A stretch of DNA of 21,218 nt from positions 1-21,218 of IMG/VR virus record IMGVR_UViG_3300009182_000367; one strand, written 5' to 3'. Shown one piece after another: positions 840 through 21,143 of this stretch (the first letter of the stretch is position 1; each line of letters opens with the position of its first letter). This DNA is from a virus. A program made the translations under genes and the position numbers. Under the pieces are notes generated by a model, which had not been told where the DNA came from, searched no databases, and saw nothing but the letters and a program-made list of their open reading frames with translations.

Positions 840-1412
840 ATGGCTGTTCCATATACATTTGCTAACGCAACTACATCAATTCCCTTGTCGCAGTTGGACA
901 GCAATTTTGCCACCTCGATTACTCTGGGAAATACGTCAGTAGTATTGGGTAACACAGTTACAAGCATTGGTAATTTAACGCTTACTACTTCTACCTTAAC
1001 AAATACATCTGCAAGTAATGTCACTATAACTAACGTAGTTAGTGCCAACTTAGCATCTAACGCTACAGTTGATGGTACAAACAAAGTTGGATATTTAACG
1101 ATTCCACAAGATTTACAAACAGGTAATTACACCATTACTTTAGCGGATGCAGGCAAGCATATTTACTATGCAACCAATGCAGCAGCTACGTTTACGATAC
1201 CAAACAATGCAACCACAGCGTTTACTGTTGGTACAGCGGTGTCTTTTGTAAACCTGTCAAACACCAATGTCACTATTTCTATATCAACGGATACGATGTA
1301 TTTAGCCAATTCAGGCAATACAGCTAACCGTACTCTAGCAACTTATGGTTTAGCTTCCGCACTTAAAGTTGCAAACACTACCTGGATTATTTCTGGAGCA
1401 GGTTTGACATGA
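840..1412 (+). CDS. Short tail fibre-like protein
   Basis: A 190-residue protein that probably belongs to the adsorption apparatus. Its N-terminus (MAVPYTFANATTSIPLSQLDSN) is of a kind I recognise from many uncharacterised phage fibre proteins that attach to the tail. Residues 28-80 are low-complexity Asn/Thr/Ser/Val strands typical of trimeric beta-helical fibres. Residues 90-190 form a distinct end domain with strand pairs around residue 118 (FTIPNNATTAFTVG) and a terminal TTWIISGAGLT. The same type of W-I-S/T-G ending closes the longer fibre at 5197-6732, so both may carry a related C-terminal cap. The gene starts 1 nt after the upstream stop and overlaps the next gene by 4 nt (ATGA at 1409). 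The fibre nature is well supported by composition. Whether it binds receptor or only links other fibres is not known. Confidence 0.7.
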   Translation: MAVPYTFANATTSIPLSQLDSNFATSITLGNTSVVLGNTVTSIGNLTLTTSTLTNTSASNVTITNVVSANLASNATVDGTNKVGYLTIPQDLQTGNYTITLADAGKHIYYATNAAATFTIPNNATTAFTVGTAVSFVNLSNTNVTISISTDTMYLANSGNTANRTLATYGLASALKVANTTWIISGAGLT

Positions 1413-3052
1413 GTGGAATATTACAAATCCTCCTTGCCTCTTTGGGAAGCGGAACAAGCGCTACATATAATGTAGTTCAGGCATTTTATGGCAGTGGAAG
1501 CTGGACTGCGCCTACAGGTGTTACGTCAGTCAACTATTTGGTTGTGGGTGGTGGAGGTGGTGGTGGTAGCGGAATTAACGGAGCCAACAATGGTGGTGGA
1601 GGTGGAGCAGGCGGGTATTTAGCAGGAACAAATCTTTCAGTAACAGCAGGAACAACTTATACCGTCACTGTTGGTGGTGGTGGTGCTGCTGGCCAAGAAG
1701 TTGCAAACGGTAATGGTACAAACGGAACAAGCTCAACCTTTAGCACTATAACTGCTGCTGGTGGTGGTTATGGAGCATATTCAAGCAATGCCGGTGGTGC
1801 TGGAGGTTGTGGCGGTGGTGCTGGCGGCAGTAGCGCAACCGGAGGCACTGGAAATACTCCTAGTACTTCACCTTCACAGGGTAATAATGGTGCTGGTGGC
1901 ACAGCAGGTGGAAATTCATCAGGTGGAGGTGGAGGTGGAGCAGGAAGTGCGGGGACAGCAGGAACTAGCGTAGGCGGCGCTGGAGGGAATGGAACCGCAA
2001 CTACTATATCTGGCTCATCTGTTACTTATGCAGGCGGTGGTGCAGGCGGTGGTGGAAGTAGCGGTTCAGGCAACCCCGGTGGTACTGGTGGTGGTGGTAA
2101 AGGGGGGACAAGCGTATTCCTCGCTACAAATGGAAGCGCAAATCTTGGTGGTGGAGGCGGGGGAGGATGGGGAGGAACTCCGTATGTTTCAGGAGGAATT
2201 GGCGGTTCCGGTGTTGTTATTATTACTTATTCCTATACGCGTACTTCAAATCAAATTTTCTCTTTTTATGGTTCAGGCACTTTAACAATACCCTCAGGCG
2301 TTACATCTGTTCAATATTTGGTATTAGGGGGTGGGGGTGGGGGTGGTGCTTTTTCAACTTCTTCTGCATCATTTGGTGGAGGAGGAGGTGCTGGAGGGTT
2401 TAGAACCGGTACTGGATTATCAGTTACGGCAGGGACCACATACACAATTACTGTTGGTGCTGGTGGAACAACCCAAACAAATGGTGGTGATTCAACCTTT
2501 TTAACTATCACTTCAACCGGTGGAGGCGCAGGGGCAAATGGAACCAATGCGCCATCTGGCGGCACAACCGGCGCTAATGGCGGTTGTGGTGGTGGTGGTG
2601 GTGCAATTGACCCATTTACGGCTGGAGGAACTGGAAACACACCATCTACCTCACCAAGCCAAGGGTTTAGTGGAGCTAACGGCGTTGTATATAATGATAT
2701 TACTCGTTCTGCTGGAGGTGGTGGTGGTGCGGGTGGAGCAGCGCCTGCTGCGCCTAGTACCGCTGGTGGCGCAGGTGGACCCGGGGCAGCATCTACAATC
2801 ACAGGTTCATCAGTAACCTATGGCGGTGGTGGTGGCGGTAGTGCAGACGCACGAAGCAGCATGACTGCTGGTCCCGGCGGTTCAGGAGGTGGAGGTAGTG
2901 GCGCTACGTTTGGCGCTACTCCGGGTACTGCTCCAACAAATGCTACCGGGGTAGGTTCTGGTGGAGGAGCTGGAATATCTAACAGTACAAATCAAAATTT
3001 ACCCGGAGCAAAAGGTTATTCAGGCATAGTAATTATCAAGTTTGAACAGTAA
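1409..3052 (+). CDS. Glycine-rich phage adhesin with two tandem copies
   Basis: A 547-residue protein made of two diverged copies, roughly residues 26-280 and 286-547. Each copy starts with FYGSG, a short strand region (VTSV-YLV), a run of seven to eight glycines, then LSVTAGTTYT, many GGG-rich loops, a shared GTGNTPSTSPSQG segment, a GSSVTY segment and a closing V-I-I strand. This is the layout of the phage glycine-rich domain proteins found at receptor-binding positions. Polyglycine-rich adhesins such as T-even-like gp38 fold as sandwiches of polyglycine-II helices and bind outer membrane receptors, so a similar fold is plausible but inferred. No signal peptide or enzyme motif is seen. The start overlaps the upstream gene by 4 nt, and the stop overlaps the oxygenase start by one base (TAATG at 3050-3054). 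Long ORFs in other frames here are by-products of the GGN codons. Confidence 0.75.
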   Translation: MSGILQILLASLGSGTSATYNVVQAFYGSGSWTAPTGVTSVNYLVVGGGGGGGSGINGANNGGGGGAGGYLAGTNLSVTAGTTYTVTVGGGGAAGQEVANGNGTNGTSSTFSTITAAGGGYGAYSSNAGGAGGCGGGAGGSSATGGTGNTPSTSPSQGNNGAGGTAGGNSSGGGGGGAGSAGTAGTSVGGAGGNGTATTISGSSVTYAGGGAGGGGSSGSGNPGGTGGGGKGGTSVFLATNGSANLGGGGGGGWGGTPYVSGGIGGSGVVIITYSYTRTSNQIFSFYGSGTLTIPSGVTSVQYLVLGGGGGGGAFSTSSASFGGGGGAGGFRTGTGLSVTAGTTYTITVGAGGTTQTNGGDSTFLTITSTGGGAGANGTNAPSGGTTGANGGCGGGGGAIDPFTAGGTGNTPSTSPSQGFSGANGVVYNDITRSAGGGGGAGGAAPAAPSTAGGAGGPGAASTITGSSVTYGGGGGGSADARSSMTAGPGGSGGGGSGATFGATPGTAPTNATGVGSGGGAGISNSTNQNLPGAKGYSGIVIIKFEQ

Positions 3053-3564
3053 TGGATAATTTATTGTTAGTTGAAAACATTTTAAGCAACAAACAGTGTG
3101 ACGAATTAATAGACAAATTTTCAACTAACTTAAATTATTTAGAACTTGATAGCCATTTAAATTATGGTTTTTATGATGCAGTAAATGGAAGTTGTAGTCT
3201 TTTAGATGAGTTGAAAATTAATCTTGTAGAAAGATACAAAGAAAAATTTCCAGCTATAAACATGACAAACGATAAGTGGACGGTAGAGTCATGGAGATTC
3301 AAACATTTCCCGCCCAATTATTGTTTTAAAGATTGGCATCAAGAACATACTACAAAGTATAGTTTCGCTATAGCTGCAATTTTAGTTTATCTTTCAAACC
3401 ATGATTGTGGAACAGAGTTTTATGCAACAGGAGAAGTAATTAAATCCAGAAAAGGTAGAGCGATTATGTTTCCGGCTTTTTGGACTCATACCCATAGAGG
3501 GCAACTTTGTCCAGACCAAAAAGACAGATACATAATGTCAGCGTATATTAATTTGCTTGGGTAA
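3052..3564 (+). CDS. 2OG-Fe(II) oxygenase, prolyl 4-hydroxylase-like
   Basis: A 170-residue single-domain enzyme of the 2-oxoglutarate and iron(II)-dependent dioxygenase superfamily. Such enzymes hydroxylate proteins, nucleic acids or small molecules with O2 and 2-oxoglutarate. The iron site is visible as H96-x-E98 in the segment DWHQEH and a distal histidine (H146 or H148) in FWTHTHRG. R159 in QKDRYIMSAY is the expected 2-oxoglutarate anchor. A GTEFY strand at 120-124 and GRAIMFP at 136-141 complete the double-stranded beta-helix pattern. The length fits a bare catalytic core. Its start codon overlaps the stop of the glycine-rich adhesin by one base, so it is probably translationally coupled to it. 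Phages often carry such genes near tail fibres, with unknown substrate. Modification of a virion protein is an attractive guess; a metabolic or host-directed role cannot be excluded. Confidence 0.85.
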   Translation: MDNLLLVENILSNKQCDELIDKFSTNLNYLELDSHLNYGFYDAVNGSCSLLDELKINLVERYKEKFPAINMTNDKWTVESWRFKHFPPNYCFKDWHQEHTTKYSFAIAAILVYLSNHDCGTEFYATGEVIKSRKGRAIMFPAFWTHTHRGQLCPDQKDRYIMSAYINLLG

Positions 3565-3578
3565 CGAAGGGGATATAG

Positions 3579-3833
3579 ATGAAAAGCAAGTTTTATCGGT
3601 TGTTTGGTATAAACGTGGCGGTTGAATTATTGCGACCTGGAGCTAAATGGGAATATAACGGTCAGCAATTTACACGTTGGGAAGATTCAAGACCTTGTCC
3701 AAGTGTTGAAGAAGTAAATGATGTTATGGAAAAGATTATGAAGTTTGAAGAATCTATTCCAACTTTGTTTACCGAAGAACAGTTAGCAAAAATGAAACAG
3801 CAAGAAGAAGATTTTGAGCGGGCGATTGCATGA
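3579..3833 (+). CDS. Small conserved phage protein, unknown function
   Basis: An 84-residue protein with no recognised catalytic motif. It begins MKSKFYRLFGINVAVELLRPGAKW, continues with a Phe-Thr-Arg-Trp-Glu segment near residue 31 and a Pro-Cys-Pro-Ser turn, and ends in an acidic alpha-helical tail with repeated Glu, Lys and Gln. I recognise this type of small protein from fibre regions of environmental phages but know no function for it. The start at 3579 has a good ribosome binding site (AAGGGG about 7 nt upstream). Its end overlaps the second oxygenase by 4 nt (ATGA). The position between two oxygenases makes a link to fibre assembly or modification possible but unproven. Confidence 0.7.
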   Translation: MKSKFYRLFGINVAVELLRPGAKWEYNGQQFTRWEDSRPCPSVEEVNDVMEKIMKFEESIPTLFTEEQLAKMKQQEEDFERAIA

Positions 3834-4432
3834 GAACAGAAAATTTGTTTCCAACTCCTGTAAGTTTTTTTGAGTATGGTTCATTTACAGAAGATGAACT
3901 AAAGTTTATTAAAGAGTTACCTGTAAGGCCTAATGACGGGAATAGAACAAGCGAAGATAGCTATTTATTTAAACAGAAAGAACTATCTGCAATTTATGAG
4001 TTTTGTTTAAGGTCGACAGAGGAATACCTTGCGTCTATTTATGCGCCAAGAGAAAAGGTAAAACCTTACATAACTCAATCTTGGACAAACTACGCTACCA
4101 AAGGTGAGTTTCATCATAGGCATCAACATGCAAATAGTATTGTTTCTGGTGTGTTGTACATACAAGCTCAAGAAAACACAGACAAGATTTATTTTTACAA
4201 AAACGAATATCAACCCATTAAGATTCCTACTGAAACGTATAATCCATACAATTCAGAATCTTGGTGGTTAAGCGTTAAAACAGGTCAATTAATAATGTTT
4301 CCTTCTGATTTAACGCATAGCGTTCAAACGATTGAAACAGACGAAACAAGAATTAGTCTTGCATTTAACACGTTTTTAACGGGTTATTTAGGCGATGAAA
4401 AACAACTTACTGGGTTGCATTTAGGAGCATAA
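3830..4432 (+). CDS. 2OG-Fe(II) oxygenase, TIGR02466-like
   Basis: A 200-residue protein of the 2-oxoglutarate/Fe(II) oxygenase superfamily, of the group I know as TIGR02466. The start (LFPTPV near residue 6), a Trp-x-Asn-x-Tyr strand at 85-89, HRHQHAN at 97-102 followed by SGVLYIQA, and IMFPSDLTHSVQ at 155-166 are the family hallmarks. R174 in DETRISLAFN is the 2-oxoglutarate anchor, and H163 the distal metal ligand. The proximal motif reads H98-x-H100, where the superfamily norm is H-x-D/E, which is notable though possibly normal for this group. It is not close in sequence to the oxygenase at 3052-3564, so the two were probably acquired separately and may have different substrates. The ATGA overlap with the upstream gene suggests coupling. 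Substrate unknown. Confidence 0.82.
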   Translation: MRTENLFPTPVSFFEYGSFTEDELKFIKELPVRPNDGNRTSEDSYLFKQKELSAIYEFCLRSTEEYLASIYAPREKVKPYITQSWTNYATKGEFHHRHQHANSIVSGVLYIQAQENTDKIYFYKNEYQPIKIPTETYNPYNSESWWLSVKTGQLIMFPSDLTHSVQTIETDETRISLAFNTFLTGYLGDEKQLTGLHLGA

Positions 4433-4433
4433 C

Positions 4434-4847
4434 ATGGCGCATTTTGCACAAATTAATGAAAATAACATTGTTGTCCAGGTTATTCGTGTAAACACAGAGG
4501 ACACATCAGATGCTTCTGGTGTTGAGAAAGACCATATTGGGTCAGCGTTTTGCGAGCGTTTGCTTGGGGGGACTTGGATTCGAACAAGTTTTAACACAAG
4601 AGCAAACAAACATTCAGAAGGTGGAATTCCTTTGCGTGGAAACTACGCAGGTATAGGTTACATTTATGACTCAACACATGACGTGTTTTATCCACCTTCT
4701 CCCTTTCCTAGCTGGACTATTTCAGCAGCTACTAATTGGACTTGGGAAGCACCTACATCTATGCCTACGGATGGTAAGTGGTATTCATGGAATGAAGAAA
4801 CAAAAGTTTGGATTGAACAACCTGCACTGACTACTACACAGGTGTAA
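4434..4847 (+). CDS. Small phage protein of fibre region, unknown function
   Basis: A 137-residue protein beginning MAHFAQINENNIVVQVIRV, a start I recognise from many cyanophage-like and pelagiphage-like hypothetical proteins close to tail fibre genes. The middle carries LLGGTWIRTSFN and GNYAGIGYIYD segments. The last third is rich in Trp, Pro and Thr with a repeated W-x-W-x-x-P style, ending near KWYSWNEETKVWIEQ. The composition suggests a small beta-rich virion or host-recognition protein, but no function is established. The start has an AGGAG ribosome binding site inside the end of the upstream gene. Confidence 0.75.
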   Translation: MAHFAQINENNIVVQVIRVNTEDTSDASGVEKDHIGSAFCERLLGGTWIRTSFNTRANKHSEGGIPLRGNYAGIGYIYDSTHDVFYPPSPFPSWTISAATNWTWEAPTSMPTDGKWYSWNEETKVWIEQPALTTTQV

Positions 4848-4849
4848 AC

Positions 4850-5188
4850 ATGGCTATTAACTCGGCGTTTACACCTACTGGAAACACGGTTGTAATTATC
4901 GTTACAACCAATGCTTCCACACCTGTACAGTGTGTGACAAACGGCGCAGCAAGCAATCAATATCGTATAATCAACGCATCGGGTTCTAACGGTGTGTTTT
5001 TGTCGTATTCGCAGACTTCTGCTAATGCTACAACTAACTGTGTAATACCTACGGCAAATGCTTCAACAACTACGTTGTACATTTTGCCTAATACCGATGA
5101 GATAATTACTTTTGTGCCGTTAGCTTACTTTGCGGCAATAGGACAGGGGACTGCCACTCTTTACATCGTGCCTGGCGATGGTATGTGA
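4850..5188 (+). CDS. Small beta-rich virion-like protein, paralogue of the protein at 14000-14356
   Basis: A 112-residue protein without enzyme motifs, made of alternating hydrophobic strands and Asn/Ala/Thr-rich turns and ending in YIVPGDGM. It aligns with the 118-residue protein encoded at 14000-14356. Both start MA-x-N-x-AF, have VTT near residue 18, an Asn-Gln pair near 35, a Cys-x-(I/V)-P strand near 65-70, an Ile/Leu-Pro strand and an end in PG-(D/E)-G. The overall pattern recalls small capsid decoration or surface proteins, but this is inference. The gene starts 2 nt after the previous stop, and the next gene begins 8 nt after its own. Confidence 0.7.
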   Translation: MAINSAFTPTGNTVVIIVTTNASTPVQCVTNGAASNQYRIINASGSNGVFLSYSQTSANATTNCVIPTANASTTTLYILPNTDEIITFVPLAYFAAIGQGTATLYIVPGDGM

Positions 5189-13816: not shown

Positions 13817-14000
13817 CCTAAACCAACAGGTAGCCAAATCTATTCGTCCTCAATTGCCCCGTGATGGCAGTGCAGGACAGATTGCTTGGCAACCTGGTGA
13901 CTTGCCTAAAGGCGGTTATCGCTCAGTCTTTCCCATGCAGGAAGGACCTTTCCAAACCAAACTATCTCCCACAAGTGGTGGTGGCAAGAAGGTGTACTAA
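13785..14000 (+). CDS. Small conserved phage protein, unknown function
   Basis: A 71-residue protein with AGGAG 8 nt before its ATG. The first 25 residues are charged and polar (MQSRKHQRDHDLNQQVAKS). The rest has the pattern QLPRDGSAGQIAW, GDLPKGGYRSVFPMQEGPF and LSPTSGGGKKVY, which I recognise from a small protein of environmental phages near structural genes. No function is known to me. It overlaps the upstream gene by 32 nt, and its stop overlaps the next start (TAATG at 13998-14002). Confidence 0.75.
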   Translation: MQSRKHQRDHDLNQQVAKSIRPQLPRDGSAGQIAWQPGDLPKGGYRSVFPMQEGPFQTKLSPTSGGGKKVY

Positions 14001-14356
14001 TGGCTAATAACATTGCTTTTCAGTCTATGGGGAAAACCTATAAGGCTAATGTCACAACAAGCAGTCAAACCATTACGATTACTGCTGATGGTCCCTGCAA
14101 TCAGTTATTGGTGTCAAACCATCAACCAACAGGCACAGGTGGTCAGCCTGTTTATTTTAATATCAGCGCGTCTAATGCAAGCGTGACTTGTGCTGTACCT
14201 TCTAATGGTAGTCCACAGTATGCGTTACTGTCGGTGCCTGGAACACAAAGAGCGTTTACCCTTCCTGCTCAGGTATCTAACACTTCTAGCATTTATGTTG
14301 CGTTTATTGGTGAAGCGGCATCTGAGTGTTATTTCACTCCAGGTGAAGGAAAGTAG
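14000..14356 (+). CDS. Small beta-rich virion-like protein, paralogue of the protein at 4850-5188
   Basis: A 118-residue protein starting on a TAATG overlap. It consists of short strands and Asn/Thr/Ser turns, with Cys in VTCAVPS near residue 65 and an end in YFTPGEGK. It shares with the protein at 4850-5188 the MAxNxAF start, the VTT and Asn-Gln positions, the C-x-(I/V)-P strand, and the PG-(E/D)-G end. Copies in two places of one phage genome suggest duplication and specialisation of a small virion component. Function unknown. Confidence 0.75.
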   Translation: MANNIAFQSMGKTYKANVTTSSQTITITADGPCNQLLVSNHQPTGTGGQPVYFNISASNASVTCAVPSNGSPQYALLSVPGTQRAFTLPAQVSNTSSIYVAFIGEAASECYFTPGEGK

Positions 14357-15676: not shown

Positions 15677-15819
15677 AAGACGGTCTTTATGCGAACATTC
15701 ACCGAAAGCGTGCAAGGATAAAACGTGGTTCTGGTGAGCGGATGAGGAAGCCAGGTTCAAAGGGCGCACCAACCGCGGCAGCGTTTCGTAAGTCAAAGCG
15801 CACCGCCAAAAGACGCTAA
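15673..15819 (+). CDS. 48-residue very basic phage protein
   Basis: A 48-residue frame too small for routine ORF calls, starting on the ATGA overlap with the DUF6321-like gene. It begins MKDGLYANIHRKRARIKRGS, followed by GERMRKPGSKGAPTAAAF and a Lys/Arg tail ending in RTAKRR. Eighteen of 48 residues are Lys or Arg. I recognise it as a small protein that recurs in environmental phages, with no known role. The tight coupling supports that it is translated. Its last 27 nt overlap the 3' end of the methyltransferase gene on the other strand, so it marks the meeting point of the two converging modules. Confidence 0.75.
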   Translation: MKDGLYANIHRKRARIKRGSGERMRKPGSKGAPTAAAFRKSKRTAKRR

Positions 15820-16635
15820 CACAAAGATTTGTTTGGCTTGTATCCATCCAAAATCAATGTAGACAGTTTGTATCTTTTCTATTTTATAGCCCTGTTTTTC
15901 TAACAAAGCCGTGACTGATGGTTCGGTAAAGTAATTGATGTGTTCGTGAAATACCGTAGGATGGTCTCCCAAATGTGCTATTTCATTTGGTACATCAATA
16001 AACACCAAGCTATCCTTGTGCAACCATTTTTCTATATCTTTCAAAGCATTAACTGGATAAGGTAGATGTTCTAATACGTTGCTGCATATTACTAGGTCAA
16101 ATGTACCCTGATGTGCAGCATCTATCTTAGTAACCCCTTCAACAACATCTACCCCGGATACATCGTAAACATACTTGTTAGCGTTAGAAAAGTAATCAGG
16201 AATATGTTGGCCTTCATCCCCGCCGTAATCCAAAATAGAATTCACTTTATCCAAATGTATTTCTGAATTTAAGAACTGGCTTAATGCTAACGCCCTGTTC
16301 TTTATCTCCAGTGGGTCTTTACCTAGACGTTTGTTCAGTTCGGTATAGCCTGGTTCAAAGATAGTGCGAAGTGATGTGTAGGCATCATTGCGATAGCCTG
16401 TATAAATCCTGGCCATTTCTTCTTCTTCAAACCGTACTTGAGAAAACACAAAGTCACAATCCAAACACTTGATAGAGTTAGTAAACAAGATAGGAAAGAA
16501 TGGCTGGCTGTTCCCTATATTAATTTGCGAGACAGGGTAATCCATTACCTTATTAGAGATAAATGGTTGGAAGTATCCTAATTTTTTTTGTATGCGTTTA
16601 GACTCGCAGCATACGCAATGATTAATTGTTTTCAT
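15793..16635 (-). CDS. SAM-dependent methyltransferase with N-terminal zinc ribbon
   Basis: A 280-residue enzyme. The N-terminus has two Cys pairs, C7-x-x-C10 and C57-x-x-C60, as in the zinc-binding part of sugar C-methyltransferases. The Rossmann core starts near residue 133: motif I reads SILDYGGDEGQ (residues 133-143), followed by FDLVICSNVLEHLPYP at 179-193. The FIDVPNE strand and HEHINYFT at 230-237 are also typical of this group. Motif I has DYGGDEG in place of the usual D-x-G-x-G-x-G, so SAM binding may be slightly altered. The protein lies directly after two glycosyltransferases, with a 1-nt overlap with the GT34-like gene. A role in methylating a sugar or glycan is inferred; a host small-molecule role is possible. 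It is the last gene of the minus-strand module. Confidence 0.8.
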   Translation of the reverse strand: MKTINHCVCCESKRIQKKLGYFQPFISNKVMDYPVSQINIGNSQPFFPILFTNSIKCLDCDFVFSQVRFEEEEMARIYTGYRNDAYTSLRTIFEPGYTELNKRLGKDPLEIKNRALALSQFLNSEIHLDKVNSILDYGGDEGQHIPDYFSNANKYVYDVSGVDVVEGVTKIDAAHQGTFDLVICSNVLEHLPYPVNALKDIEKWLHKDSLVFIDVPNEIAHLGDHPTVFHEHINYFTEPSVTALLEKQGYKIEKIQTVYIDFGWIQAKQIFVLASFGGAL

Positions 16636-17294
16636 TATGCAGTTTGTGGGATTTCACGGTCATGTTTTACTTTCCATGTAGCCGTCCCATCCCCCCAATT
16701 TTTCTGGAATTCGGTAGCAGCTTGTACTTTGTTAGGTATAGGCATCCCATAGAAATGCACTATCCAATCTCCTAGTTGCCAATCTTTCGGATGCTGGTTC
16801 ATTACTTTGGCATCCACGATGCGTAGTGCTTTACGCACAATCTCATCTTCTTGAATCATATTCCATAGATGGGTCTGTACGGTCCAGGGATAGTTCTTCC
16901 AGGTTTCAAACTCATTGATAATACGGTCCAGTACATAATGAGATTGCCAAGTGTTTTTCCATATCATCACGTCATTGTTTATAGGCCACCAACAGCTTTG
17001 TTCTTTGGCTATCACAATATGGTCTTCATACTTGATAACGTCCTCAATCTTGATAGCCCAGTTCATAAACATAGTATCGGCACCTATTGTCATCAAAACA
17101 TCTGACGCCGTTAGCTCTACCTTTCTGCGTTTAAGACTGTCCACGACCAGATTGCCGTAATCTTTTGAGTAATCGAAGTATTCAGGCAGATAGGTATAGC
17201 CGTGTTTGTAGCAATAGTTCCGGTGGTTGATTCCGGTAATCTTGTACAGGTCGGCTATATTCTCTGAATAGTTACTACTGACAGTTATATTCAT
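16635..17294 (-). CDS. Glycosyltransferase, GT34-like
   Basis: A 219-residue protein resembling the galactosyl transferase GMA12/MNN10 (GT34) fold. The start has NHRNYCYKHGYTYLPEYFDY (residues 23-42), then DVLMTIGADTMFMNWAIK at 65-82, the position of the GT-A metal site. An NNDVMIWKNTWQS segment follows at 106-118, and the C-terminal GDWIVHFYGMP at 175-185 is the family signature. The usual D-x-D is G-A-D here, so one Asp seems replaced by Gly; whether this reflects metal independence or another carboxylate taking over cannot be told. It overlaps the upstream glycosyltransferase by 4 nt and the methyltransferase by one base. Target unknown. Confidence 0.75.
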   Translation of the reverse strand: MNITVSSNYSENIADLYKITGINHRNYCYKHGYTYLPEYFDYSKDYGNLVVDSLKRRKVELTASDVLMTIGADTMFMNWAIKIEDVIKYEDHIVIAKEQSCWWPINNDVMIWKNTWQSHYVLDRIINEFETWKNYPWTVQTHLWNMIQEDEIVRKALRIVDAKVMNQHPKDWQLGDWIVHFYGMPIPNKVQAATEFQKNWGDGTATWKVKHDREIPQTA

Positions 17295-18061
17295 GGTGAG
17301 GGTATCAATCCACCTTCAAAGATATAACTGCCAACGTGGGCTAGCTGTACCCAGGGTGCTGCGTGTACTGGGATGCCGTTCTTTCTGGCCACCATGCAAA
17401 AGTGATAATCCTCTGAGAGCAAACGGTTTGTACCTTCCTCAATAGAACAGGCAAAGAACTCAGCAATCTTTTCAGGTCCTAAATTGCCAGATAGGTCTAA
17501 TACGTCATTGGTATAGCTAGGCACAAGTGTCGAAAGTTTTTCCAATGCTTCACGTTTGATTAACATAAAGCCTGTACCGCCGTTCCATATCTCAATTGGC
17601 TTGTTGACCGGCACGGTGACGGTGCCTTCATAGTTGACCAAATTGACTACAAAGCTACCCGTGTAGTTTTTCCATTGTTCCATCGGTACACCGGCTTTCT
17701 GCGCTTGCTCAACTGACTGCCAGTTAATCTCTTTCTTAGGATAGATACCGCAGATAATGTCTAAATCGGCATCAATCATGGGCTGTACTTGTGCAGGGTT
17801 GAAACGTATATCTGCATCAATAAAGAACAGGTGAGTAGCTTCAGTCTTGAGAAACTGGTGTGCTAACGCGTTTCTAGCGCGTTGTATCAACGATTCGTTA
17901 AACATGAAGGAGAATGTGGTGTGATTACCGCTCTCGCCCATAGCACGCTGTAAACCGATTACAGACTGTAAATAGAATCCTGTACACATTCCCCCATACA
18001 TAGGGGTAGCGACAAAGATATGGTTTGATTTCTTTTCTACTTCTTTTTTTGCTTTCTTCAT
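17291..18061 (-). CDS. Glycosyltransferase, GT-A fold (GT2-like)
   Basis: A 256-residue glycosyltransferase. A Lys/Glu-rich lead is followed by HIFVATPMYGGMC (residues 14-26), then FNESLIQRARNALAHQFL, which is a common entry of phage GT-A enzymes. THLFFIDADIRFNP at 76-89 contains the D82-A-D84 metal motif. Residues 157-170 (EIWNGGTGFMLIKR) form the acceptor loop, and SEDYHFC at 216-222 carries the candidate catalytic acid. The HVGSYIF end is also typical. The start has AGAGGG upstream on the minus strand. It begins the cassette of two glycosyltransferases and a methyltransferase, after a 100-nt gap with inverted repeats. Sugar and acceptor are unknown. Confidence 0.85.
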   Translation of the reverse strand: MKKAKKEVEKKSNHIFVATPMYGGMCTGFYLQSVIGLQRAMGESGNHTTFSFMFNESLIQRARNALAHQFLKTEATHLFFIDADIRFNPAQVQPMIDADLDIICGIYPKKEINWQSVEQAQKAGVPMEQWKNYTGSFVVNLVNYEGTVTVPVNKPIEIWNGGTGFMLIKREALEKLSTLVPSYTNDVLDLSGNLGPEKIAEFFACSIEEGTNRLLSEDYHFCMVARKNGIPVHAAPWVQLAHVGSYIFEGGLIPSP

Positions 18062-18990: not shown

Positions 18991-19185
18991 CTAGCTCCTA
19001 ATTAAATGATAACGTGCAAACGTCTTATTGCCTTTCGTAACATCCTCGGTTCTGATGTTATGTCCTTGCTCTCTTAGTACATGAATGTGTGCTGCCAACC
19101 TTGTTGTACCCACTCGTTCATACGCTTCAATCTGCGTGATAGGTGCTCGTTTTAACTCATCAAGCACCATATCTGTTTGCGTCAT
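18991..19185 (-). CDS. Small helix-turn-helix protein
   Basis: A 64-residue protein with the layout of a winged helix. MTQTDMVLDELKRAP is the first helix, and ITQIEAYERVGTTRLAAHIH forms the helix-turn-helix with recognition helix RLAAHIHVLREQG. The wing is NIRTEDVTKGNKTFARYHLI. It matches the small HTH domain proteins common in phage DNA metabolism operons, which may bind DNA as local regulators or accessory factors. It overlaps the RecT stop by 4 nt (ATGA at 19182-19185). Confidence 0.75.
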   Translation of the reverse strand: MTQTDMVLDELKRAPITQIEAYERVGTTRLAAHIHVLREQGHNIRTEDVTKGNKTFARYHLIRS

Positions 19186-20054
19186 GCGAACTCGTCTGCT
19201 GTCATGAGTGGGCCAGTTGACTTTGGGCTTTTAACCGCTCCCAAAGAACTTTGAGTTGCTTGTGCTATCACTGCCCTTTGGATAGCTGACAAGCGATGTA
19301 AAGGCCCTTTGTTAGCATCTGCAAACGCCCTAGTCTTCTCTGCCTTCTCTTGTGATGAGAACTTAGTTGAATTACCTATTTTCTCTATCATTTCGTTATA
19401 GGCAAATATCCATGCCTCCGCGTTGTGATGAGTAGAATAGACAGTGCCATCGGGTAAAACAATGTCAGCCCAAACCTGTTCACCTATCTTTGATATATCA
19501 CCCTCATTTTCTTGCACTAATACGTTATGAGGAAGTTCAACAGGTGTTGGCGTCACGTCTTTCTCAACACGTTTAGGCGGTTCAAAGTCCTCCACTTCTT
19601 CAGGTGTATAGGTACCAACTACACAACCAGGATAGACCGAGCGGATTCCCTCAGAAACAACCCTAGCTCTTAACATAGCGCGTGGGTACTTTGTCCAACC
19701 ACCACCTGACTTAATAAGACCTGCCTTTTGTGCTTGCTCAATAGACCAAGTGACGGTCAGAGAACCACCGTTAGGATGCGTGAATAGTCCTGCTACCTTT
19801 TCATCGGTGTAGCTTGACCATTCCACCTTGCCACCTGCTTGTTGGAATCTGGCTAGCATAGCGTCTGCTTTAAGAGCGGGTCTACCTTGAATGATATGGT
19901 AGTCACGCGCTGCTGTGGCAGGGTGTAGGCCCTCTGCTTGGGCAACGAGCATGAGTGCCAATACCTCATTGACGTTCTTCATGCCAAACAATCCTGACTT
20001 GGCTATGCTGTCAGCCATCAGGGTCATATCTTGAAATGGGACTAGGTTACTCAT
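19182..20054 (-). CDS. recT: RecT family single-strand annealing protein
   Basis: A 290-residue recombinase of the RecT/Bet group, which anneals complementary single strands made by a partner exonuclease. The N-terminal MADSIAKSGLFGMKNVNEVLALMLVAQAEGLHP (about residues 13-45) and DYHIIQGRPALKADAML at 51-67 are typical of phage RecT proteins. GGWTKYPRAMLRARVVSEGIRSVYPG at about 118-143 is the family core. The C-terminal 100 residues are less typical and have a mixed charged helical part with QAKAEKTRAFADAN-like character. It lies two genes after the YqaJ exonuclease, the standard pairing. It overlaps the small upstream gene by 8 nt (ATGAGTAA) and the HTH gene by 4 nt. Confidence 0.88.
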   Translation of the reverse strand: MSNLVPFQDMTLMADSIAKSGLFGMKNVNEVLALMLVAQAEGLHPATAARDYHIIQGRPALKADAMLARFQQAGGKVEWSSYTDEKVAGLFTHPNGGSLTVTWSIEQAQKAGLIKSGGGWTKYPRAMLRARVVSEGIRSVYPGCVVGTYTPEEVEDFEPPKRVEKDVTPTPVELPHNVLVQENEGDISKIGEQVWADIVLPDGTVYSTHHNAEAWIFAYNEMIEKIGNSTKFSSQEKAEKTRAFADANKGPLHRLSAIQRAVIAQATQSSLGAVKSPKSTGPLMTADEFA

Positions 20055-20235
20055 CTGTTTTTATCTCCCTGTGTTTGAGCATGGCATCTGCTACTTTATA
20101 AGCGAGCATGGCAGCAACTTCAGCATCAGTAGCATGAGAATTTGCTACAGCCATACCTGCGAACCAATCTCTTAAATCCATCCCGTACTCGGTTTGGCCT
20201 GTCATCGTGTTGTACTGACTAGGAAATGCTTTCAT
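20047..20235 (-). CDS. Small phage protein in recombination operon, unknown function
   Basis: A 62-residue protein between the exonuclease and RecT. It reads YNTMTGQTEYGMDLRDWFAG near residues 8-27, then AMLAYKVADAMLKHREIK as a C-terminal helix. The GMDLRD-x-FA segment is one I recognise from short proteins of phage early operons, with no function known. It overlaps the exonuclease stop by 4 nt and RecT by 8 nt, so the three are surely one transcript. Confidence 0.75.
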   Translation of the reverse strand: MKAFPSQYNTMTGQTEYGMDLRDWFAGMAVANSHATDAEVAAMLAYKVADAMLKHREIKTDE

Positions 20236-21143
20236 TTGACTAGAAACCTCCGTGAACCTGGTTGTTCAATAACAAACTGGTTGTAAATGTCTGGCATAGC
20301 AGACTTGAATAAATCGGCAGAGAACCGCTTAGATGCTTTGGATTGCTTCCAAGTGGCTAATACCTCACCTGAAACACTGACCAACTCAGAATGGTTTCTT
20401 AGATGGTTTTGAATTAGAACGCTAAGTTCTTCTTCTCTAGTCTCCAACTCCTTAATGGTGTTCTTAACGTCTTTCAGGTAGCCGATGGCTTTCTCCACGT
20501 CATAGTTTGCCGTCACTGTGGTATCACTTGGTTGTGTGTACACCAGTTTGCACTCTGCTAACGTCTGCGGGTCGGGCAAGGTATTAGCGACTACATGCCC
20601 CCAAAACACGGCCATCTGCTTTGTCAGTTCTTCCTTCATCTCATCGGTGACAGTCATTTCATAGTGTCTGAAATGTTGGCCACCAAAGAGAACGCATAGC
20701 ACTGCGCTGCTTGAGTTAAGACAGATAGCTTCCTGTATCAATTGCCCTGTGTCGGCAGGCGGTAAGATAAGCGGGTCTTGTTCAAAGAACTTCATCTTGT
20801 TGATGTTGTAGTTCTTAATCTCATAGGGAATATACCCGCCACCTTTGACCTCTTTAACGTAATCAAAGTGGGATTGCATCCACGGTTCAGTTGGATGCTT
20901 GCCTGTCCAGTCCGCTTTAGCCAGATTAATTTGCAGAGTATCCTCGGCTATTTTGGCGATGAAGGGTTCCATTACATGTCCCATCTGCACCACCTCTACG
21001 CCTGACAGGTCATCGCGCTCTGCTTTACCCTGCTTTTGAAGGATAACGGTCGTGGCTTTGCCATCCAATGCCATGCGGGTATCACTTGAGAACCAAGCCT
21101 TGTTTCTGACTTCATCTTGAAAGTCTGCTCTATCGTTAGCCAT
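20232..21143 (-). CDS. YqaJ-like viral exonuclease (lambda exonuclease fold)
   Basis: A 303-residue 5'-3' exonuclease of the YqaJ/lambda Exo type, which resects double-strand ends so that RecT can anneal. The N-terminal helices (RADFQDEVRNKAWFSSDTRM) are followed by QMGHVMEPFIAKIAEDTL (residues 53-70), which holds E59. D94 in SHFDYVKEV and E108-x-K110 in YEIKNYN make up the D...ExK metal site. Residues 120-145 give the DTGQLIQEA helix. Beyond residue 215 a long coiled coil (IGYLKDVKNTIKELETREEE) is followed by a beta-rich end with RFLVK. The start is immediately after an upstream stop (TAA then ATG). The pairing with RecT is direct evidence for role. Confidence 0.88.
   Translation of the reverse strand: MANDRADFQDEVRNKAWFSSDTRMALDGKATTVILQKQGKAERDDLSGVEVVQMGHVMEPFIAKIAEDTLQINLAKADWTGKHPTEPWMQSHFDYVKEVKGGGYIPYEIKNYNINKMKFFEQDPLILPPADTGQLIQEAICLNSSSAVLCVLFGGQHFRHYEMTVTDEMKEELTKQMAVFWGHVVANTLPDPQTLAECKLVYTQPSDTTVTANYDVEKAIGYLKDVKNTIKELETREEELSVLIQNHLRNHSELVSVSGEVLATWKQSKASKRFSADLFKSAMPDIYNQFVIEQPGSRRFLVK

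Follow-up and report, generated by a model that had tools for sequence, protein, structure and literature searches.

Aquatic phages with an oxygenase gene beside a glycine-rich fibre tip probably hydroxylate their own tips

Why should a phage keep two oxygenase genes among the genes with which it recognizes its host? We asked this of an entire IMG/VR virus record of 21,218 bases (hereafter the window), in which five genes on the plus strand follow one another closely: the gene for a predicted glycine-rich fibre tip or adhesin, GlyR (1409–3052; 547 aa); OxA, a P4H-like 2OG-Fe(II) oxygenase (3052–3564; 170 aa); Sm, a small conserved gene (3579–3833; 84 aa; phrog_21526, 9.6e-20); OxB, a second 2OG-Fe(II) oxygenase (3830–4432; 200 aa); and a gene that matches phrog_7759 at 2.2e-39 (4434–4847; 137 aa). 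Beyond them lie a 112-aa gene and then a 511-aa fibre-like gene. A first-pass annotation of this DNA had the P4H-like enzyme starting on the stop codon of the adhesin and the other enzyme coupled to the small gene by ATGA, and both junctions are exactly as it placed them. The TAA of GlyR (3050–3052) and the ATG of OxA (from 3052) have one base in common (TAATG), and the ATG of OxB at 3830 overlaps the TGA of Sm; the start of GlyR likewise overlaps the preceding gene by ATGA (1409–1412). The Sm–OxB overlap is not a chance feature of this record, because 85 of 92 distinct Sm–OxB pairs share exactly that overlap. Elsewhere in the window, the minus strand carries a row of methyltransferase-like and glycosyltransferase-like genes apart from the fibre operon (15793–18061) and genes for a RecT-like annealing protein and a RecE-like exonuclease (19182–21143). 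The small proteins encoded at 4850–5188 and 14000–14356 are distantly similar in a single comparison (25% over 73 residues, E 9e-7) and are possibly duplicated virion decoration proteins.

The two oxygenases had been called unrelated, and profile searches bear this out by placing them in different families. OxB is of the PF13759/TIGR02466 type: it scored 78.4 bits against Pfam PF13759 (5.8e-22; cut-off 27) and 67.8 bits against TIGR02466, above the curated cut-off of 62.5, and it matched phrog_81 at 3e-41. OxA matched phrog_61 at 3.7e-18, which supports its place in the superfamily; its score against PF13640 (21.2 bits) is below the curated cut-off of 27, and its sequence match to bacterial P4H structures is weak (E 0.01). 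The suggestion that both enzymes have intact metal and 2-oxoglutarate residues holds for OxA, in which H96-x-E98, H146 and R159 form a canonical HxE...H...R motif with an aspartate or glutamate at position 98 in 13 of 13 aligned sequences. For OxB it is right by the standard of its own family and wrong by that of HxD. Its residues are H98-x-H100, H163 and R174, a three-histidine motif from which the classical 2-His-1-carboxylate HxD/E...H triad is absent; across the family alignment (n = 177) both first histidines, including the one at the carboxylate position, are present in all 177 sequences, H163 in 176 and R174 in 162. The bacterial structures 2rg4 and 3bvc carry the same HxH, and since the motif is typical of the family OxB may still be active.

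An AlphaFold model of OxB (pLDDT 90.3) confirmed the double-stranded beta-helix fold, with 2rg4 and 3bvc as the best Foldseek matches (5.4e-10 and 1.5e-8). After these members of its own family came PHD2/EGLN1, Tpa1, OGFOD1 and the P4H of P. putida, together with the small-molecule enzymes PolD and HygX, so that, as judged from the model, the nearest characterized folds are mostly those of protein (prolyl) hydroxylases. To our knowledge, no member of the OxB family has been assayed. A pattern scan of GTDB genomes returned no close cellular relatives of OxB, and the hosts are therefore not readable from prophages.

GlyR, for its part, has the features of a fibre tip. Two stretches of the protein match PF21722 (Gly_rich_2; 1.8e-50, 172.5 bits against a cut-off of 24.3), and it also matches phrog_2295. 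When its second domain was modelled (AlphaFold, pLDDT 86.5), the best Foldseek match was the fibre of cyanophage Pam3 (7ypx; 1.1e-6, TM about 0.5), and the tail tip of Bxb1 was matched as well. With a Gly_rich_2 domain and a tip fold, GlyR falls in the Pam3/S16 class of glycine-rich fibre tips. Sequence searches of the PDB with the tip and with the phrog_7759 protein gave no matches.

We then examined how far this gene arrangement extends beyond the window. A scan of IMG/VR by similarity to OxB alone retained 80 contigs, with OxB proteins 51–58% identical to the query. A glycine-rich tip (a protein of more than 27% glycine) lies upstream of OxB in 65 of the 66 contigs with at least 1 kb of upstream sequence; the exception, L017, contains the motif DNA described below, with no intact tip frame called. 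Downstream of OxB, the phrog_7759 gene is present in 76 of 76 contigs. Two architectures occur beside OxB: two-domain tips, about 540 aa long, are always accompanied by Sm (36/36), and one-domain tips, about 300 aa long, never are (0/25). Sm thus follows the doubled domain and not OxB, and it is a likely partner of that doubled domain; the idea that small fibre partners such as Sm are themselves hydroxylated found no support. The downstream flanks of the cassette comprise at least eight groups not linked to one another (of 47, 17, 11, 2, 1, 1, 1 and 1 contigs); upstream flanks were left out as contexts because low-complexity tail proteins link them all. From these groups it follows that the cassette moves as a block and does not mark one phage lineage: GlyR, Sm, OxB and the phrog_7759 gene form a modular cassette. 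The same order of tip, small gene, OxB and phrog_7759-like gene is found in DSL-LC04, an uncultured, complete assembled phage genome.

OxB is an optional part of this module, tied to some tips, because the cassette also occurs without it. Most tips in a sample drawn by phrog_7759 are without any oxygenase, and in related two-domain cassettes a shorter Sm (74 aa) is joined directly to the phrog_7759 gene with no OxB, this OxB-less form of Sm being shorter at its C terminus. Other genes also occupy positions in the cassette. HNH homing-type endonuclease genes sit at two of its slots, including the expected place of OxB (L029:5278-5820, L206:7805-8281, L236:2263-2775), and in L079, L081 and L234 OxB and the phrog_7759 gene are separated by a gene of 123–124 aa, of which the L081 copy has no Pfam match.

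OxA differs from OxB in this respect. Among 90-odd cassettes with Sm, only that of the window has OxA in the slot between GlyR and Sm; its nearest relatives (42–43%) are in other loci, two of which adjoin a phrog_7759 gene. OxB is the conserved partner and OxA a rare extra, so the equal treatment that the first-pass annotation gave the two enzymes was wrong. The co-occurrence with fibre genes that it expected in related genomes is near-obligate for OxB and glycine-rich tips and is not conserved for OxA in its slot; a functional tie to the tip is strongly supported for the former and weakly for the latter. OxA does have a parallel, in that second oxygenases have repeatedly been added at this place. 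In several phages OxC (PF13640) separates OxB from the phrog_7759 gene or directly follows the latter, and 15 of the 77 tips that bear the motif described below and have an oxygenase close by have at least two oxygenase families nearby; most OxC relatives sit away from tips. In L163, L164 and L167, several 2OG-oxygenase-like genes stand in a row right after a glycine-rich tip and a phrog_7759 gene. Sulfotransferase-like genes, encoding a possible second modification, occur in or beside the tip module at L167:2579-3355 (by Pfam) and L180:3262-3837 (by eye only).

If OxB acts on the tip, which part of the tip would it meet? We compared the frequency of all three-residue patterns between tips with and without OxB, treating one- and two-domain tips separately. 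The strongest patterns, among them PSQ, N...T.P, NTP and P...PS, are pieces of one motif, GNTPSTSPSQG, which with small variation occurs once per tip domain and is carried by nearly all OxB-adjacent tips of either architecture. The window holds two exact copies, against none in 100 shuffles: one in the first domain of GlyR (residues 148–158; 1850–1882, plus strand) and one in the second (residues 409–419; 2633–2665, plus strand). A candidate peptide substrate for OxB would be GTGNTPSTSPSQGNNG. Contigs were next drawn with the motif as a DNA pattern, regardless of oxygenases, and this sample was pooled with others also drawn regardless of oxygenases, with 2.5 kb of room required. An oxygenase lay within 2.5 kb of 77 of 115 motif-bearing tips and of 5 of 88 motif-free tips, and in none of those five cases was it OxB. 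The other 38 of the 115 tips with the motif lack an oxygenase within that distance, and on this ground the idea that the motif marks OxB without exception was rejected. Three apparent exceptions with the motif have OxB elsewhere on the contig, the copy in L202 being far from its tip. A separate set of 38 contigs, picked because OxB was missing nearby and bearing almost exclusively motif-free tips, has no close OxB anywhere.

Tests that control for shared ancestry are in the same direction and weak. On a tree of phrog_7759 proteins, three independent pairs were for the association and none against, of seven supported, too few for significance; on the tip tree, about 1.5 pairs were for and 0.1 against, with significance out of reach. 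G[FY]RT, taken as a control pattern from another part of the tip, associates with the oxygenase equally strongly, including on the tip tree. Taken together, the control pattern and the weak phylogeny-controlled tests mean that the motif may only mark a tip subtype. In multi-tip arrays the relation with motif count is weak (p 0.05, in a sample partly chosen by motif), and arrays without OxB often bear the motif as well. The loop nevertheless remains the best single substrate candidate, because it brings together conserved tip prolines, the least ordered block of the tip and a sequence common to tips beside unrelated oxygenases. In the second domain of GlyR, it sits in the lowest-confidence block of the model (domain residues 131–140, mean pLDDT 63 against 86.5 overall).

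On the basis of these comparisons, we propose that many aquatic phages with the tip–oxygenase block probably hydroxylate their own fibre tips. In this model, GlyR, carried in a modular receptor-binding cassette, would be a fibre tip rich in polyglycine, as in cyanophage Pam3, and OxB would be a protein hydroxylase dedicated to this tip, which it would modify inside infected cells with Fe(II), O2 and 2-oxoglutarate. Its likeliest site would be the exposed GNTPSTSPSQG loop of each tip domain and, most simply, a proline. Sm and the phrog_7759 protein, the latter possibly a fibre chaperone or tip partner, would aid the folding or mounting of the tip, and OxA would be an additional hydroxylase, recently or rarely acquired, probably with the same protein target. 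We give this explanation, taken whole, about an even chance. If it is right, host range would come partly from enzymatic modification of the tip, which receptor-binding prediction from sequence ignores. A broader and more tentative idea, which we consider rather unlikely as it stands, is a post-translational code in which three-histidine enzymes of the OxB type hydroxylate the prolines of GNTPxxSPSQG in polyglycine tips while added oxygenases and sulfotransferases diversify the receptor-binding surface; the tip would then not be fully set by the sequence of its own gene. With the subfamily locked to one type of tip, its partner named and the candidate loop short, the puzzle of an 'auxiliary gene' becomes a question for one mass spectrum.

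Among the alternatives, the one to which we give most weight, itself a minority possibility, keeps OxB as a protein-modifying enzyme and moves its target to the phrog_7759 protein, to Sm or to another site on the tip, with the loop marking a subtype. The equal association of G[FY]RT, the constancy of the phrog_7759 gene as a neighbour and the shorter C terminus of Sm where OxB is missing are all consistent with this; however, many tips that have no oxygenase at all still have a phrog_7759 gene beside them, and one-domain cassettes carry OxB without Sm. We regard as distinctly less probable a target in the host, in which OxB and OxA would act on a receptor, a surface glycan or a small molecule, with the exclusion of competing phages as one possible benefit, and would stand beside the tip, and be exchanged with it, because enzymes and tip alike have to do with the host surface. 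Sulfotransferase-like genes in two related modules (L167 and L180) and the glycosyltransferase- and methyltransferase-like genes of the window at 15793–18061 fit such a role, whereas the position of OxB within the fibre operon, its overlap with Sm and its tracking of a tip subtype argue against it, as do its nearest characterized folds.

The enzymes might also be ordinary auxiliary metabolic or repair functions that alter cellular 2-oxoglutarate, a nitrogen signal, or repair DNA. Distant cyanophage relatives do lie in other settings, for example in S-B64, where the neighbour is a DNA endonuclease gene, and in P-SSM2, where baseplate genes are close by, and most OxC relatives are away from tips, but this account, which we think improbable, leaves the constant place of OxB between a glycine-rich tip and phrog_7759 unexplained. 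Slightly less probable again is that OxB is no longer an enzyme and serves the tip as a structural component or chaperone, in which case HxH would be a relic or a structural metal site. The replacement of HxD by HxH and the fixed operon position would agree with this; the essentially invariant H98, H100 and H163 and the conserved R174 are instead what is expected of an active site in use, and 2rg4 and 3bvc have an identical HxH.

The 2OG oxygenases of cyanophages were proposed to be 2-oxoglutarate/nitrogen-signal or DNA-repair genes (Sullivan 2010, PMC3037559), and the metabolic or repair proposal was repeated for DSL-LC04 (PMC10611076); taken with PMC9602691 and PMC12774648, these papers describe phage 2OG oxygenases as metabolic or repair genes or name them without a phage function. 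In the literature that we searched, the coverage of which is incomplete, we found no account of phage fibre hydroxylation or of a tip–oxygenase cassette. The oxygenases of T4-like cyanophages (PMC3037559, PMC9602691, PMC12774648) belong to the same superfamily and include relatives of both OxA and OxB, but at the places viewed (S-B64 and P-SSM2) they lie outside any tip cassette. For the tip, the closest parallels are the Pam3 tail fibre gp24 with its chaperone gp25 (PMC9608196; PDB 7ypx, 7yfw) and the gp38 tips of the S16 type, which are of the same fold class as the GlyR domain and likewise have a small partner gene after the tip gene; the small genes of the window are of other families, and the Pam3 paper (PMC9608196) mentions no oxygenase. 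As for the enzyme, the nearest characterized folds (PHD2/EGLN1, OGFOD1/Tpa1 and the P. putida P4H) are only 12–14% identical to OxB, and protein prolyl hydroxylases have HxD where OxB has HxH. The TIGR02466/PF13759 structures 2rg4 and 3bvc are of the same family as OxB, with the same HxH...H...R residues and the same fold; those known structures are bacterial and uncharacterized, whereas the OxB subfamily is bound up with the fibre tips of phages.
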